The notes under the pieces: model-generated
Database searches by the model: none
What the model was told of the DNA's origin: nothing
The model's input: only the letters and a program-made list of their open reading frames with translations
Program-made: the position numbers and the translations under genes
Shown here: one piece after another, positions 13,813 to 31,886 of the stretch
How positions within the stretch are numbered: the first letter of the stretch is position 1
Layout of the letters: every line of letters starts with the position of its first letter
From: Ignavibacteriota bacterium
Lineage (GTDB): Bacteria; Bacteroidota; Ignavibacteria; Kapaibacteriales; UBA2268
Direction of reading: 5' to 3'
Assembly (NCBI GenBank): GCA_016219595.1
Contig: JACRLY010000080.1
Span: 1-35,178 of the forward strand
Length of the DNA: 35,178 bases

Positions 13813-15042
13813 ATGAACATAGGCGAAAGCATATACCAGGCATTTGATTCGGTCAGGACAAACAAATTAAGAACATTCCTGACTCTTCTTAGTATATCAA
13901 TAGGAGTATTTGCAATTATTGGTGCAGGTTCACTTGTCGATTCAATCAATGGTTCTGTATTCAGCGAAATGGAAGCTCTTGGCAGGAATTCATTTTTCAT
14001 TTATAGAATGCCTGCTCTCGAAATGGGGCATAACTGGAGAAAATACAGGAAGAGAAAACCTATTACTTATTCTGTCCTGAAAGAATTAAAAAAGAAAATG
14101 ACGCTTTCTGAATTTGTTACTGCTCATGGTTTTTCTATGGCAAATACAATCGAATACGGTGAAAATTCTACCGACCCGGATGTGAATTTAATGGGAGCTG
14201 ACGAGAATTTTTTCACTGCTCAAAATGTGGCTATTTACAGGGGAAGACCTTTCACTCAAGAAGATATTGATTATAATAGAAATTTTGCTGTTATTGGTAA
14301 TGATATTGTAGTAAAATTATTTCCGAATATCGACCCCTTAGGAAAAAGAATTAAAATAAAAAATCATTCTTATACTGTGATTGGTGTTCTTGAAGCAAAG
14401 GGTGCCGTAATGGGGGAGAGCCAGGATAACAGGGTTATAATACCTTTGACCGAATTTCTGAAATATTATGCATCAATGTGGGAATATGACTTATTTATTA
14501 CTATCAAAGCAATTGATTACGAAACTTTAAATGATGCCATTGATGAAGCAATTGGTATTATGAGGTCGATCAGGAATCTTAAACCATGGCAGGAAAATGA
14601 TTTTGAAGTTGAAACGAATGAATCCTTAACTGAACAATTTGCAAGTTTCACAGGATTCCTTTCATATTTTGGAGCATTCTCCGGAATAATTGCCTTAATT
14701 GCTGCCGGTGTAGGAATAATGAATATTATGCTTGTTTCGGTTAAAGAAAGAACCAGGGAAATAGGCATAAGAAAAGCTGTTGGAGCTAAACGTCGCTGGA
14801 TTCTTACTCAATTTATTATAGAAGCAATTACACTCTGTCAAATAGGAGGATTCATAGGTATAATCATGGGTTTAATTGCTAGTGCCTTTTTCGGCTCTCT
14901 CATGAATATAAAACTTGTTCTTCCATATTCATGGGTTATTTTCAGTATTATTATCTGTACACTGCTCGGACTGATATTCGGTTCCTATCCTGCCTGGAAA
15001 GCAGCCAAACTTGACCCGATTGACGCATTAAGGTATGAATAA
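13813..15042 (+). CDS. ABC transporter permease (MacB/FtsX type), copy 2
   Basis: Same architecture and motifs as copy 1: 'SVRTNKLRTFLTLLSISIGVFAIIGAGS', 'VKERTREIGIRKAVGAKRRWILTQFIIEA', 'PAWKAAKLDPIDALRYE'. Confidence 0.95.
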   Translation: MNIGESIYQAFDSVRTNKLRTFLTLLSISIGVFAIIGAGSLVDSINGSVFSEMEALGRNSFFIYRMPALEMGHNWRKYRKRKPITYSVLKELKKKMTLSEFVTAHGFSMANTIEYGENSTDPDVNLMGADENFFTAQNVAIYRGRPFTQEDIDYNRNFAVIGNDIVVKLFPNIDPLGKRIKIKNHSYTVIGVLEAKGAVMGESQDNRVIIPLTEFLKYYASMWEYDLFITIKAIDYETLNDAIDEAIGIMRSIRNLKPWQENDFEVETNESLTEQFASFTGFLSYFGAFSGIIALIAAGVGIMNIMLVSVKERTREIGIRKAVGAKRRWILTQFIIEAITLCQIGGFIGIIMGLIASAFFGSLMNIKLVLPYSWVIFSIIICTLLGLIFGSYPAWKAAKLDPIDALRYE

Positions 15043-15278: not shown

Positions 15279-18254
15279 ATGAAAAATTTTTCCTCCTTTT
15301 ATATTTATTTATCTGTTTTCATTCTCGCTTCATTTATACATCAAATCGCATCAGCACAGTATTTACTCTCAGTTAATAAATTACCGTCTTGGCTAACTCA
15401 AGAAAATACTATTGAAAAAAAATTGGAATCTCCGATTGAAATGGCACCAAGAAATGCTAATCCAATGTCAGGTGAATATTATCAGAAAGCAATAGAACAC
15501 TTAAAAAATATGCCGGATGAAAATATAAATTCTAAAAATAAAAATGCTCAAATACAATCAATAACTCAATGGCAATCTATTACTGCTACAAGAGTACCTC
15601 TGAAAGATAACCCCAACATTGCCGCACATGGTAGAATCAGAACTCTATATTGGTTCCTTAATTCTTCCAATCCTTCGGGCAGTATTTGGGAATCTTATAT
15701 AGGTGCCAGTAGTGGCGGAATTTGGAAAAAATCATGGAACAGACCTGACAGCTGGTGGTATTCTTATGGAGATAAATTACCTAATCCTTCTGTTGGAGCC
15801 TTATGTGTTTATCACGATTACATTCGCGGTGATGTAATATATGCTGGTACGGGTGACTGGGAAAGATTCAATGGTGCCGGACTTTTTATGTCTACCGACC
15901 AGGGATCTTCGTGGAATAAAATTCCACTTATGGACGGTACAAATGAAGTCATTCCCACTGCAATAACTTCAATCATTAGAAAAGAAAATTACGGTTCTCC
16001 TGATACTATGTATGTTGCCACCGATATGGGTTTCTTCAGGTCTGCTTACGGTGGCACAACCGGATTTACGAGGATACCCATTGTTGCGGAACCCAATTGG
16101 GGTATTTTTGCTATGGTTAAAAATCCTGTCAGTCAGAATATATTATATGCATCTTTACCTTACAGGGGTATTTACAAAACTACAAATTGGGGTAGCACAT
16201 GGTTTCCAGTTAATAATGGATTACCCGATATGAGTAAAACCGGCAGGACTATGTCTTTGGCTATCAGCCAAAGTAATCCCCAGGTTTTATATGTTGCTGT
16301 TACTGATACAAACAGCGATATTCAAGGCGTATTTATCACTACTAACGGTGGTGACATTTGGACAAGAACAAATGCTCCGAATGATATTTCAATTGCCGGG
16401 CAGGCTTTCCATGCAAATGCAATTGCTGTTCATCCTTCGGATTGGAGAATTGCTTATGTAGGTTCTGTAAATTGTTATATAACCAGGAATGCGGGACAAA
16501 ACTGGGACAGGATAGATCCCGGTCATTCAGATATAACGGGATTTTATTTTCTCCCGAACAATCCAAATACGGTTATCATAACAAGCGATGGCGGAGTATT
16601 CATTCGTGATGACAGCAGAAATACAATCCAAAACACTTCTGAAAATTTTTCAGGTGGTGTGCCGCTACAGGAGTATGGGATGGACTATGCTGTAAGTGAG
16701 CCAAACATGATGATTGCCGGAACTCAGGACAATGGAACGATGGTTTCAACAACAGCTTCAGTATCTTCCACAAAAAATTGGACTGAATTTTACGGTTGTG
16801 ACGGAGCTAATTATGTTTACATAGACCCTGTAAATTCAAACTACGCATATTTTAATTCCTGGTGCGGTGAAACTAATCCAAGATTCAGAACACCCAACAA
16901 AGGTATCAATGTTGATGATATTAACAGCGGATTGGCAATGGTTTATTATTCACCTATTGGGATGAATAAATTCAACACAAATTATATTTTTACATATACT
17001 AATCAAGCTGTTTACTTTTCATCCAATCGTGGTAACGATTGGAGAAGAATCAATAACCTTTCGATGGATTTTACTGCAGGACAATTTCCGAAGGAAGCAC
17101 CAGCCGGATTAGCCGTAAGTAATGGTGCCGGAACTAATCCTGTATTATATGTTTGTTTTTGGAAACCTAAACCTTCCGACGTTATTCCTTCGGAGCCGAA
17201 TCCTGAAAGAAAAATTTTCGTTTCTGAGGGTGTACCTGGTTCCATGATTAACAGAATATCTTATCTTCCTGATTTATCTACTGTCAGGGCTGTAATTGCT
17301 GATAACTGGAATCCAAATATAGCATACGCTTTTCCTGAAGCACCTGTTTTCAAATTATTTAAAACATCAGACAGGGGATTGACCTGGAACAATATTTCAG
17401 GTAGCCGGCCCGATTCCTCACTACCGCCGGCGAATGTGAATTATGCTGTTTCTGTTCCCGGTGATGCAAATACAATTTTTGCAGGAACTGATGTCGGAAT
17501 GTTTAAAACCTCGAATAATGGTTCAACTTGGCAGAAATACCAATACGGCTTACCTATTGTACCAATAAATAATATTGTTTATATACCAACAGCCGGTAAT
17601 GATTTACTTAAAATTGGAACTTTCGGCAGAGGATTTTGGGAAAGGATTATTGATGGTGATGACCCTAATTGGACTCCTGCACCTACTGTAATTCGGAGAG
17701 AAAATCGATGTCCAGATTCTTTGATTTATTGCCGTTTATATTGGTCTATTATTCATTTGAGGGCACTCGACAATCCTGTCTGGAGAATTCCTCCCGGCTG
17801 TTTCATGGTTGCTAACGGACAAGGTACAATTGAAAGGTCATTTGATGCCGGTCAGACCTGGGAAATGTTCCAGTTGCCAACAAAGGAAAATATTACTTCA
17901 ATTGCGCCTCTTAGCGAATCTGGTGCTTTTGCTGTAGGAGAAGAAGGCGGTATGTTCATTACAAAAGACTATGGGCAGACCTGGAATCAAGTACAAACGC
18001 AATATAATGTGCCTCTACTTTCAGTTGCATTTTCATCTTTCAACGATGGTTACATTGTCGGTCAGGACGGATTATTATTAAGAAGCAACGATGGAGGAAA
18101 TTCATGGTCGGAATTTATGAATGACCCGGTAAAAACTTTTAGTCAAATATATTTTGTTAATTCCGGCTTAGGTTTTATTGCTGGAATGGATAATAAATCA
18201 AAGCCTGCTACTCCATTTATGCTTAGAACAAATGATGGTGGTAAATCATGGTAA
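15279..18254 (+). CDS. secreted BNR/VPS10-like and Ycf48-repeat beta-propeller protein, upstream fragment ending at an in-frame TAA
   Basis: Signal peptide 'MKNFSSFYIYLSVFILASFIHQIASAQ'; repeated 'TSDRGLTWNNIS', 'SNNGSTWQKYQYGLP', 'NDGGNSWSEF' motifs. Ends mid-repeat at 'NDGGKSW*'; homologous repeats continue in the same frame. Confidence 0.85.
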   Translation: MKNFSSFYIYLSVFILASFIHQIASAQYLLSVNKLPSWLTQENTIEKKLESPIEMAPRNANPMSGEYYQKAIEHLKNMPDENINSKNKNAQIQSITQWQSITATRVPLKDNPNIAAHGRIRTLYWFLNSSNPSGSIWESYIGASSGGIWKKSWNRPDSWWYSYGDKLPNPSVGALCVYHDYIRGDVIYAGTGDWERFNGAGLFMSTDQGSSWNKIPLMDGTNEVIPTAITSIIRKENYGSPDTMYVATDMGFFRSAYGGTTGFTRIPIVAEPNWGIFAMVKNPVSQNILYASLPYRGIYKTTNWGSTWFPVNNGLPDMSKTGRTMSLAISQSNPQVLYVAVTDTNSDIQGVFITTNGGDIWTRTNAPNDISIAGQAFHANAIAVHPSDWRIAYVGSVNCYITRNAGQNWDRIDPGHSDITGFYFLPNNPNTVIITSDGGVFIRDDSRNTIQNTSENFSGGVPLQEYGMDYAVSEPNMMIAGTQDNGTMVSTTASVSSTKNWTEFYGCDGANYVYIDPVNSNYAYFNSWCGETNPRFRTPNKGINVDDINSGLAMVYYSPIGMNKFNTNYIFTYTNQAVYFSSNRGNDWRRINNLSMDFTAGQFPKEAPAGLAVSNGAGTNPVLYVCFWKPKPSDVIPSEPNPERKIFVSEGVPGSMINRISYLPDLSTVRAVIADNWNPNIAYAFPEAPVFKLFKTSDRGLTWNNISGSRPDSSLPPANVNYAVSVPGDANTIFAGTDVGMFKTSNNGSTWQKYQYGLPIVPINNIVYIPTAGNDLLKIGTFGRGFWERIIDGDDPNWTPAPTVIRRENRCPDSLIYCRLYWSIIHLRALDNPVWRIPPGCFMVANGQGTIERSFDAGQTWEMFQLPTKENITSIAPLSESGAFAVGEEGGMFITKDYGQTWNQVQTQYNVPLLSVAFSSFNDGYIVGQDGLLLRSNDGGNSWSEFMNDPVKTFSQIYFVNSGLGFIAGMDNKSKPATPFMLRTNDGGKSW

Positions 18255-18323
18255 AATGTAATTGACATTCCTACCGATTTAATAATTAATAAAGTATTTT
18301 TTACATCCGAAACCAATGGCTTT

Positions 18324-18962
18324 ATGCTTGGTAACGGAGGATTTCTAAGGCAAACATTCGATGGTGGAGCCAATTGGGAGAACTACGGTTACAATGAAGC
18401 AAAATCAGATTTATTTGATATTGGATTCAAAACTCAGGAAGAGGGATTTATCACAGGAGCAAACGGACTGATAATGAGAACTACTGACGGCGGTAAAAAT
18501 TGGTACAAGGAAGAAACTCAGACAAGCGACAATTTTTATAATATCGTAGCCGATACAAACAATGTGATAGCTATAACTGATACGGTATTATATAAGAGAA
18601 ATTACCTGAATAACAGGGAAACTTATGGTCAGGCTCTCATTCATTGGGTGAATCCTGATTATGATACATTAAAAATTACTGATGTTCATGATATCGATGG
18701 AGTAATCAATGCTCTCGAAGTATATCCTAATCCTGTTAATTCTGTTTTAAATCTTAAATTTTCAAATTCCGGTGCAATTGATGCTGAAATCAGGATTGTG
18801 AATTTAATTGGAAATGAATTAAAACTTTATAAAGAAAAATGTCAAACTCAGGGAACTTACCTTTTCAGTTACAATTTGAGTGATTTAGATAATGGAATTT
18901 ACTTTATTCATCTCAAAACAAAATATGGAACTTTTGTGAAAAGAGTTGTTCTCATAAAATAA
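18324..18962 (+). CDS. downstream fragment of the same propeller protein carrying a type A T9SS C-terminal sorting domain
   Basis: Same frame as 15279 (difference 3045 = 3x1015). 'FDGGANWENYGYN...TTDGGKNWYKEE' continue the repeats; 'LEVYPNPVNSVLNLKFSNSG...LSDLDNGIYFIHLKTKYGTFVKRVVLIK' is a classic Por_Secre_tail-type CTD. Open frame actually resumes at 18255. Confidence 0.85.
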   Translation: MLGNGGFLRQTFDGGANWENYGYNEAKSDLFDIGFKTQEEGFITGANGLIMRTTDGGKNWYKEETQTSDNFYNIVADTNNVIAITDTVLYKRNYLNNRETYGQALIHWVNPDYDTLKITDVHDIDGVINALEVYPNPVNSVLNLKFSNSGAIDAEIRIVNLIGNELKLYKEKCQTQGTYLFSYNLSDLDNGIYFIHLKTKYGTFVKRVVLIK

Positions 18963-19028: not shown

Positions 19029-19952
19029 TCATTTTTGCATTGATTTAACTGTTTCTTCAATACCATTTTGATATGATGTCGGTTGAAAGTTGAATTCTTT
19101 TTCAAATTTACTACTGTCAAACAAATAATCGAATTCACTCTGATATAACATTTCCACGCTTTCGCTAATTATTCCATTAAATAATCCAATCATTTTCATC
19201 ATCCATTTTTTTACATTTGTGTATTTGGGTTTAATATGAAATGATGATGCAACAATTTCAATAAACTCTTTACCCGTCATCACATTTCTATCTGTTGGCA
19301 AATGCCAAACCTGGTTATATACACTTTCTGTGTTACCAAGTATTGCCGTTGCCTTTCCCGCATCAGGAGTATAAGTAAAAGAATGGAAAACTTTATCATT
19401 CATCAACCATTGTGCTTTTTTACCATTCCTGTATCTTTCAAAAACCATGGCATTCACAAAACTTAAAGGAGTGTTAGGACCATAAAAATCAGCTGACCTT
19501 GCTATTATTGCCTTTAAACTTCCTTTGTTAAATTCATTAATAATCATTTCTGATATTTTTGCCCTGACCTCTCCTTTTTTGCTAGATGGATTAACTGGAG
19601 TTTGTTCAGTCATCCATCCATCAACTTTTCCATATAAATATACATTATCAAAAAATACAAGTTTTGTATTGTGGTTGATACAAGCATCTATCACATTTTT
19701 CATAATAATTGGCCATTGAACCTGCCATATTTTTATATCATATTTTAAACCAACTGTTAAATATGCTACCGATGTACCTTCAACAGCTTTTAAAGTTTGT
19801 TCGATATTTGTGAGGTCGGCAGAGAATATCTCATCTCCCTCATTTACTTTTACAGGATTACGGCTTACTAATCTGATTTTATCCGTATATGCTGTTAAAT
19901 TTTTTGCCAAACCTCTGGCAATTACTCCATTTGCTCCTAATATTACCTGCAT
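19029..19952 (-). CDS. NAD-dependent epimerase/dehydratase (extended SDR) family protein
   Basis: 'MQVILGANGVIARGLAKNL' (divergent GxxGxxG), 'LVFFDNVYLYGKVDGWMTEQTPVNPSSKKGEVRAKISEMI', 'IIARSADFYGPNTPLSF'. Confidence 0.88.
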   Translation of the reverse strand: MQVILGANGVIARGLAKNLTAYTDKIRLVSRNPVKVNEGDEIFSADLTNIEQTLKAVEGTSVAYLTVGLKYDIKIWQVQWPIIMKNVIDACINHNTKLVFFDNVYLYGKVDGWMTEQTPVNPSSKKGEVRAKISEMIINEFNKGSLKAIIARSADFYGPNTPLSFVNAMVFERYRNGKKAQWLMNDKVFHSFTYTPDAGKATAILGNTESVYNQVWHLPTDRNVMTGKEFIEIVASSFHIKPKYTNVKKWMMKMIGLFNGIISESVEMLYQSEFDYLFDSSKFEKEFNFQPTSYQNGIEETVKSMQK

Positions 19953-25558: not shown

Positions 25559-28500
25559 TTAATTCAGATTTTTAATATCAAATTCTTTCAGGTACGCCGC
25601 CTGTTCTGTCTTAGTCATCTTCCCGTTCTTTGTCCTCACATAACATTCAACAGCTTTTCCTTCTTCATTTATAACATACCCGTAAACAGTACCCTTCGGC
25701 ATCATCAGCACCTGCGGAAAATGCATCTGCTGTCCCATCTTCAGCGATATTCCGCTCGGCACTGGCGGTATGCACTCCTTACTCGCTGACTGAGTTACTG
25801 TATCAACCGAACCCGTAAGCTTCGTCGCTCCATACAAATAATATCCCGGGCTATTAAATTTCAACCTGTACCTGTAATGATTTATATTATCATACTTCGC
25901 CGGCAAATTCTTAAACACAAAATAACCATTCTGATAAGCTTCACCCACAATCCTTACACATCCTCCTGTACCTGTATAAAGTCCCATGTCACTGTCATCA
26001 GATTTCTTCCCTGAATAAAGCATTACAATTCCAAAATTCACGCTACGCATCGCATTCGACGCATCCAGAACACGTCCGGATATTATTGGTTTCTTCGGCT
26101 CGAGGTAAACATTTATCGATAAGCTCACCGGCTTATAATCCTCTACAAACAAATAATCATACTCATTCCTGTAGTACACTTCTGCTAATTTTGCATTCAT
26201 CTGGCTTTCATAATTCTGCCACGCAACTTCTGCTTTGGCTGCATTTGAAAGGCTTCCAGCATGAGTATTCTCCCATGCCTCATCTATCTCCTTATTGTTC
26301 GAATACGCTGTATCCTTCTTCCAGTCATCATAACCACGGGGGAAATAAATAGTTCTTTTTTGGTAAGAATTTTCGCCAACAGTATCGCTTGTGCTTATTT
26401 CAATTTTATAGTCATCCCAATTCACATTCTTATTGTGCAAAAACAATCCCGTGAATCCTGCTCCCGTTTGCTTATCAACGTATTCTTCACCATGTAAATA
26501 ATTATCCCATCTCGTAATCTTCACAGTGCTACCGTATATCACTCCACCCGGTTCGCTCTGCTCCAGATTTTTAGGATTCTTTCTCGGCACTACATTCAGT
26601 TTATATGTCCTCTTGTATGCTATCAATGTTCCCACATCGACAGAGTCCAAAGGTTGTATAAGAATATCATTTGATGGATTATAAATATATTGCTTCGTGT
26701 AATCAATTACCACAACTCTCGTTGTCCTGTGAAGCTTACCGCTGTATCCGGCAACATTGCAAAACTCCCCGTTTCCTGTTCCGAAATTACCCGAACTCTG
26801 CCAACTGCCAAGTGAATCTATGTGAGCAAAATTCTTGAAAACAAATTTCCCTTCACCGTTTGTCGTCGTTGTTGCCAATAATGTATTCCCATCTCCGAAC
26901 GGTTTCGACAAATCTGCTTCCAGCTGTGCTGCCTGCTGTCCCGTATTAGTTACACTCACTGCATTATTATGTTCTTCAAGCACATGATATGGGTCGATTA
27001 TAGTCTTGTTACCATTATTATCTTCTACGTAATAGGTAACCATCAAACCGATTTGCCTGTAATTCATCGGCTTTATATTCGATTTCGGGTCACTGGGGTC
27101 TCGCGAAACCAATTGTCCTGAAACTGATGCTGTCGGCGGATTATTTGAAATAATTGTTGCTTTCTTATCTACCTTAAAATTATAAATTTGATTTATATAA
27201 TTATAGACAAGCACATATAAATTCGGTACAAATTTTTGTGAAGTCAGCCAATATTCACTCCAATTCTTCTTTACCTGACCATTAATAATTTCTTCCTGCC
27301 ACATATCAACAAGGTAATTATCCCCATTCATCCAATTGACAATCAGTTTATCAATAGTTACAATTGTATGTGCTTTACCATCGCTTCCAATCACCGTTTC
27401 AACTTTTCCCTGTGACACCTGTTTCATCTGGTATAATTCCTTCTTTGGGTCACCAGGCTCGATTTCACCCTCATAATAGGGTATCTCTGCCTTGCTTCCC
27501 ATACGGTATACACTTACTTTCACGTTCTGTGGATTCAGGTCTTTAAAATTTCCCTTATTATACCCTTTACTCACCTCAAACTTCAACTTGTAACTCCAAA
27601 CATAAGTCACAATTTTCCCTAAATTGATAGAATCTGCATTCAACTCTATTTTCTTATTAATTTCCAGATAATAAAAATTATTTATTAAAAGTACGTAATA
27701 TTCAAACAATCTTCCTTTCACCAAAGTCGCAGTATTTATATTACCGAATTTCTTATTCACCTGGTATTGCATGATTTTATTTAAATCCCCGCCATTCTTT
27801 GCTCCTACAATAGGTACACTGAAACTTCCATCCTCGTTCAATGTAACAGGTACATCTGCTTTACCCATCCCTTTATAATATAAATTCTGGTCAATGCTGT
27901 CAGCTATTATCTCATTTGTAACTGTATCCCTAATCATAAGGAATCTCTTTAGTTTAACTCCGGGAGAATTGACCGGGTATTCATCCGTATAATGCTGGAA
28001 CCTGTACATCAGTTGCCCGTTTATATTATATACATTCTCAGGTAAATCAAGGTAAGCATAATCAGCATTAATTGTGTCTAAAGCATATTTCTGTGCTGTC
28101 GAATCGGGCAAATTTAAATTAGTATTTTTCAACACATCGAACTGTTTAAAATCAACACTCATCGAATTAATGAAATGAACTTTATATTTTATAAATGCAG
28201 TGTCGCTCTGTTTTGCAGTATTATTTTTCCAAAGCACATAAAAATTCTTTTTATTATTAACTTCTATTTTCGGAGTTTCTCCAATCGAACCGGCTTCTTT
28301 ACACGTTGGAATTATAATATCAATACCTTTTTCAATATTTGATGCAGTAGTATCCGGTGTATGAGGAGTTTCAACAGTTTTATATATGAATTTCCATGCC
28401 TCGCTCACTCCCGCATTTTTAAACATTACATTATTCGCCGGGTCTCGTGCAACAACTCTCCATGCGTATGTCTCCCCGTTTAAAAAGGTCGGGTCATTAG

Positions 28501-31812: not shown

Positions 31813-31886
31813 TACCGGAGGAGGGAGTTGAACCCCCGACACATGGATTATGATTCCATTGCTCTAACCAACTGAGCTACTCCGGC
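31813..31886 (-). tRNA. tRNA with CAT anticodon (elongator Met, or Ile2 if lysidine-modified)
   Basis: 74 nt cloverleaf on minus strand: GCCGGAG TA GCTC AGTTGGTTA GAGC A ATGGA ATCATAA TCCAT GTGTC GGGGG TTCAACT CCCTC CTCCGGT A; anticodon CAT. Lacks the initiator GGG/CCC anticodon stem. Confidence 0.95.

Follow-up and report, generated by a model that had tools for sequence, protein, structure and literature searches.

The window, as we call the whole stretch of 35,178 nucleotides analyzed here (Ignavibacteriota bacterium, contig JACRLY010000080.1), carries on its forward strand a reading frame that is uninterrupted from 15279 to 18962 but for a single TAA at 18252–18254, with 991 codons before this stop and 235 after it. 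The features of this split gene, and the stop of a second split gene in the same window, are as follows.

15279..18251, + strand: upstream part of the split gene, 991 aa; N-terminal propeller (Sortilin-Vps10/BNR-like) and first Ycf48-type blades
18252..18254, + strand: in-frame TAA within a Ycf48-type blade (NDGGKSW-stop-NVID)
18255..18962, + strand: continuation in the same frame, 235 codons; more Ycf48-type blades and a T9SS sorting domain, then TAA
18720..18950, + strand: T9SS type A C-terminal sorting domain (Por_Secre_tail, TIGR04183)
25559..25561, − strand: in-frame TAA splitting a 2379-codon frame (29266–22127) with a TANFOR-like N-terminus

One gene on both sides of the stop

A preliminary description of this DNA had stated that the frame opening at 15279 halts at the TAA and stays open beyond it. 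Frame analysis bears this out, with a small correction: the 236 further codons of that description are 235, the larger figure including the terminal stop (TAA, 18960–18962). An open run of this length would be expected by chance with a probability of about 4e-8 at the window's base composition. Its codon score matches that of coding sequence, and it contains no further lesion.

Matches to domain models occur on either side of the stop. In Pfam and NCBIfam searches, Sortilin-Vps10/BNR matches lie upstream, and Ycf48/PSII_BNR matches flank the TAA, with E values of 4.7e-21 upstream and 1.4e-19 downstream. The sorting domain scores above the curated cut-off of both models that describe it, with 52.4 bits for Por_Secre_tail (cut-off 27; E 6.8e-14) and 42.1 bits for TIGR04183 (cut-off 23; E 6.2e-11). 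The Pfam and NCBIfam matches thus uphold the earlier claim that Ycf48-type repeats and a full type A C-terminal domain follow the TAA. The same holds for the claim that a product ending at the stop loses its T9SS signal, since the sorting domain is encoded behind the TAA and so lies apart from the N-terminus. Judged by eye, the N-terminal segment, MKNFSSFYIYLSVFILASFIHQIASAQ, resembles a signal peptide; between it and the sorting domain stands the TAA.

The DGG.(S/N/T)W repeats of the blades keep their register on either side of the TAA, which cuts a blade in two, in its middle rather than at a domain border. The register also holds across the stop when the C-terminal region is aligned with 18 homologous segments from other genomes. 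Almost all of these segments extend to the TAA column and none of the 18 has a stop there; the residues found in that column vary (T, D, G, Q, E, L, F, R, S and N). When the TAA is read as a residue (residue 146) in an AlphaFold2 run on the 18-segment alignment, the model shows a propeller with a confidence of about 90 on either side of that residue, and the sorting domain as a weaker beta-sandwich (mean pLDDT 76.5, pTM 0.66). The joined region is accordingly predicted by this model to fold as one propeller. Both sides of the TAA are one gene.

In domain order and in its sorting domain, the encoded protein is like the T9SS type A cargo proteins with BNR/Ycf48 propellers (PF15902/PF14870 together with PF18962/TIGR04183). 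Unlike those, the gene described here is interrupted by a TAA and is specific to one species among four congeneric genomes.

Genomic setting of the propeller gene

The gene is flanked by an ABC transporter permease (13813–15042), which is 90–92% identical in the congeners, and by a NAD-dependent epimerase-like gene (19029–19952), which is 87% identical in the congener G002. The propeller gene stands beside these conserved neighbors in none of the congeners, and synteny breaks exactly at its position. No orthologue is found in the three congeners examined, where the best matches are paralogues of about 30–32% identity. Scans of genome contigs with the propeller return distant relatives in other phyla and nothing nearer, and a tblastn search of plasmids with the propeller yields distant YCF48 proteins and nothing else.

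Because it has no congener orthologue and sits at a synteny break, the propeller gene is, as far as these sequence comparisons reach, an accessory one, present in this species alone of the genomes compared. Its loss would be tolerated. With no orthologue in the congeners, the ancestral codon at the TAA is therefore not readable from orthologous genes.

Other broken genes in the same assembly

Nonsense codons elsewhere in the genome were sought in 40 stretches of 20 kb, which together with the window make up 835 kb of the assembly, 275 kb of it comparable with the congeners; for the congener side, stretches of G002 and G003 were used. The counts of in-frame stops were curated by hand, and antisense ORFs and stretches upstream of true starts were set aside. 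Five internal in-frame stops, all of them TAA, are retained in the 275 kb of comparable sequence, and the TAA of the propeller gene is the sixth. Outside the window, the genes interrupted in this way are the following (contig and position).

C4:103923: in-frame TAA in nuoL; Ser in three congeners
C4:85158: in-frame TAA in a T9SS propeller gene; Ser in G002
C58:8409: in-frame TAA in the gene of a small exported protein (184 residues); Glu in the congener comparison
C45:25188: in-frame TAA in a short accessory gene; Glu in the congener comparison

The second split gene of the window (29266–22127), on which the preliminary description is silent, has stop-free orthologues in three congeners at 74–78% identity. 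Its product is large and probably exported. The model TIGR02542 for TANFOR, a domain class described previously (PMC7073777), matches the N-terminus with an E value of 1.2e-12, yet the match stays under the curated cut-off. Some other candidates for split genes, L101:16525 and L113:4508 among them, were rejected as ordinary neighboring genes in the same frame.

The reverse comparison, by our reading, gives about 2 nonsense-disrupted genes for G002 (304 kb compared) and 2 for G003 (248 kb), each a small accessory gene; G002 also contains about 4 frameshift-like joins. These figures suggest a two- to threefold excess of nonsense codons in the present assembly over its congeners, an excess that is not statistically firm and, because the counts are small, not proven. 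The present assembly stands apart in having breaks in long, conserved genes. All six of its in-frame stops are TAA, against 41–50% expected from random single-base changes (chance about 0.01), and we have no explanation for this make-up beyond small numbers and the selection of what was looked at. Several of the stops would require a change from G:C to T:A; a mutator or oxidative damage was considered as their source and rejected, the substitution spectrum on this genome's own branch being like that of the congeners.

Several genes are broken by deletions. In serS (C15, near 1290; L103:345–1672), 37 nt are deleted out of frame relative to two congeners, and a search for the serS family through the whole assembly returns this split copy alone, all other matches being weak and belonging to other proteins. 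serS is required by every living cell. Because the gene is essential and the sole copy found is broken, the consensus is doubtful here, and it would be wrong unless an intact copy was overlooked or belongs to the 9% of the genome that the assembly lacks. Consensus errors are thus very probably present in this draft. Whether a consensus deserves trust is quickly seen from genes that are essential and single-copy in the assembly concerned, such as serS here. Set against two congeners, a neuB-like gene (sialic/pseudaminic acid synthase; C2, about 14,112) has lost 70 nt out of frame. Between nuoM and nuoN, the loss of 160 nt has joined the two genes into one (C4, near 100,568). This fusion and the TAA in nuoL fall in one operon (C4, about 100,000–105,000), in which either this complex I has truly been lost or the assembly is wrong. 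A second nuoL-like gene is present on C14. A further sorting domain (C124:28241) has likely been frameshifted off its gene: its 74-codon frame comes directly behind an open frame of 492 codons that is read in a different phase. Runs of N occur in several of the sampled stretches and may mark scaffold gaps or withheld bases.

Origin of the stop codon

The TAA at 18252–18254 is very probably an isolated one-codon disruption, through consensus error or recent nonsense mutation, with no regulatory role; the break is private to this assembly, in which other isolated breaks occur. It resembles the nonsense pseudogenes and consensus errors of draft and metagenome assemblies in that a single premature stop interrupts an otherwise intact frame, is private to the assembly and is accompanied by other breaks. 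It is unlike the usual cases in that no congener orthologue gives the ancestral codon. Roughly half of the probability would fall to an error of consensus or assembly and most of what remains to a nonsense mutation that is genuine and recent; why this one base reads as it does, and what becomes of the product, we infer.

If consensus or assembly error alone is responsible, a reading to which we give about an even chance, the organism itself has a sense codon at 18252–18254 and an intact propeller gene. The frameshifted sole copy of serS, the longer deletions in the neuB-like gene and between nuoM and nuoN, the runs of N and the in-frame TAA in a core gene such as nuoL all point this way, as does the otherwise clean state of the 235 codons that follow the TAA. 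However, the surest errors, those in serS and the neuB-like gene, are deletions rather than base substitutions, and the congener assemblies also contain a few nonsense codons.

That the nonsense mutation is real and recent, and that the population sampled carries the propeller gene as a young pseudogene, we rate slightly below an even chance. The gene is accessory, without an orthologue in three congeners and placed at a synteny break, nonsense codons are found in small accessory genes of the congeners as well, and the own-branch substitution spectrum is ordinary, all of which argues for a real mutation; the breaks in serS and nuoL nevertheless mean that the assembly is not to be taken at face value. 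Were the mutation real, the pseudogene would be young because the frame behind the TAA is otherwise undamaged. Its product would have 991 residues, end within a blade of the second propeller and lack the sorting domain, and would presumably reach the periplasm and fail to pass the T9SS.

The preliminary description had offered three options, of which recent nonsense mutation and consensus error stand, while the third, a programmed or regulated readthrough of the TAA that controls T9SS export, is unsupported and in our judgment highly improbable. The intact frame behind the TAA does carry an export signal, as such a switch would require. However, TAA is the commonest terminator of this genome (97 of 166 long ORFs), and none of the 37 tRNAs found in the assembly, all of them typed, has the anticodon TTA that reads UAA. 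The RNA following the stop folds no better than shuffled sequences (z = −1.1), and the region behind it is free of Rfam elements, the sole Rfam match of the window being a tRNA at 31813–31886. Highly expressed genes of bacteria favor UAA as their stop codon (PMC5289835), so that a leaky stop would hardly be expected to use it. The mid-blade position of the stop also argues against a switch, as do the isolated breaks in unrelated genes (nuoL, serS, nuoM–nuoN and the TANFOR-like gene), all of them intact in the congeners. Among seven short-frame sorting-domain loci inspected, a comparable in-frame stop lies upstream at the propeller gene alone.

Known readthrough extensions in viruses and eukaryotes (PMC4132726, PMC4973966) likewise have an open coding frame behind the stop. 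They differ from the present case in using a leaky TGA or TAG context, whereas the stop here is TAA, is conserved in 0 of 18 homologous segments, and is accompanied by neither a suppressor tRNA among those found nor a stimulatory structure. Reassignment of the TAA codon was rejected: the residues differ among the five comparable sites, and TAA is a normal terminator. Low-level readthrough of a few TAA codons in several genes of the lineage, by which a minor fraction of the propeller molecules would retain the sorting domain, is likewise very improbable, hinted at only by the fact that all six in-frame stops are TAA. Split frames in draft genomes can mimic recoding and call for caution.

Two separate proteins, the second translated alone from the ATG at 18324 as a 212-aa product, are scarcely credible: an ATG-initiated ORF (18324–18962) is present, but it begins inside a blade and inspection by eye shows no signal peptide, without which a sorting domain would be unable to reach the T9SS, and coding signal and repeat register both span the TAA.

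The T9SS cargo set of this genome is very large, with at least 150 Por_Secre_tail matches in the 3.4 Mb assembly, and many of the cargo proteins are Ycf48/BNR propellers. Were the TAA real, its effect would be the loss of one ordinary cargo out of a set with at least 150 type A sorting domains.
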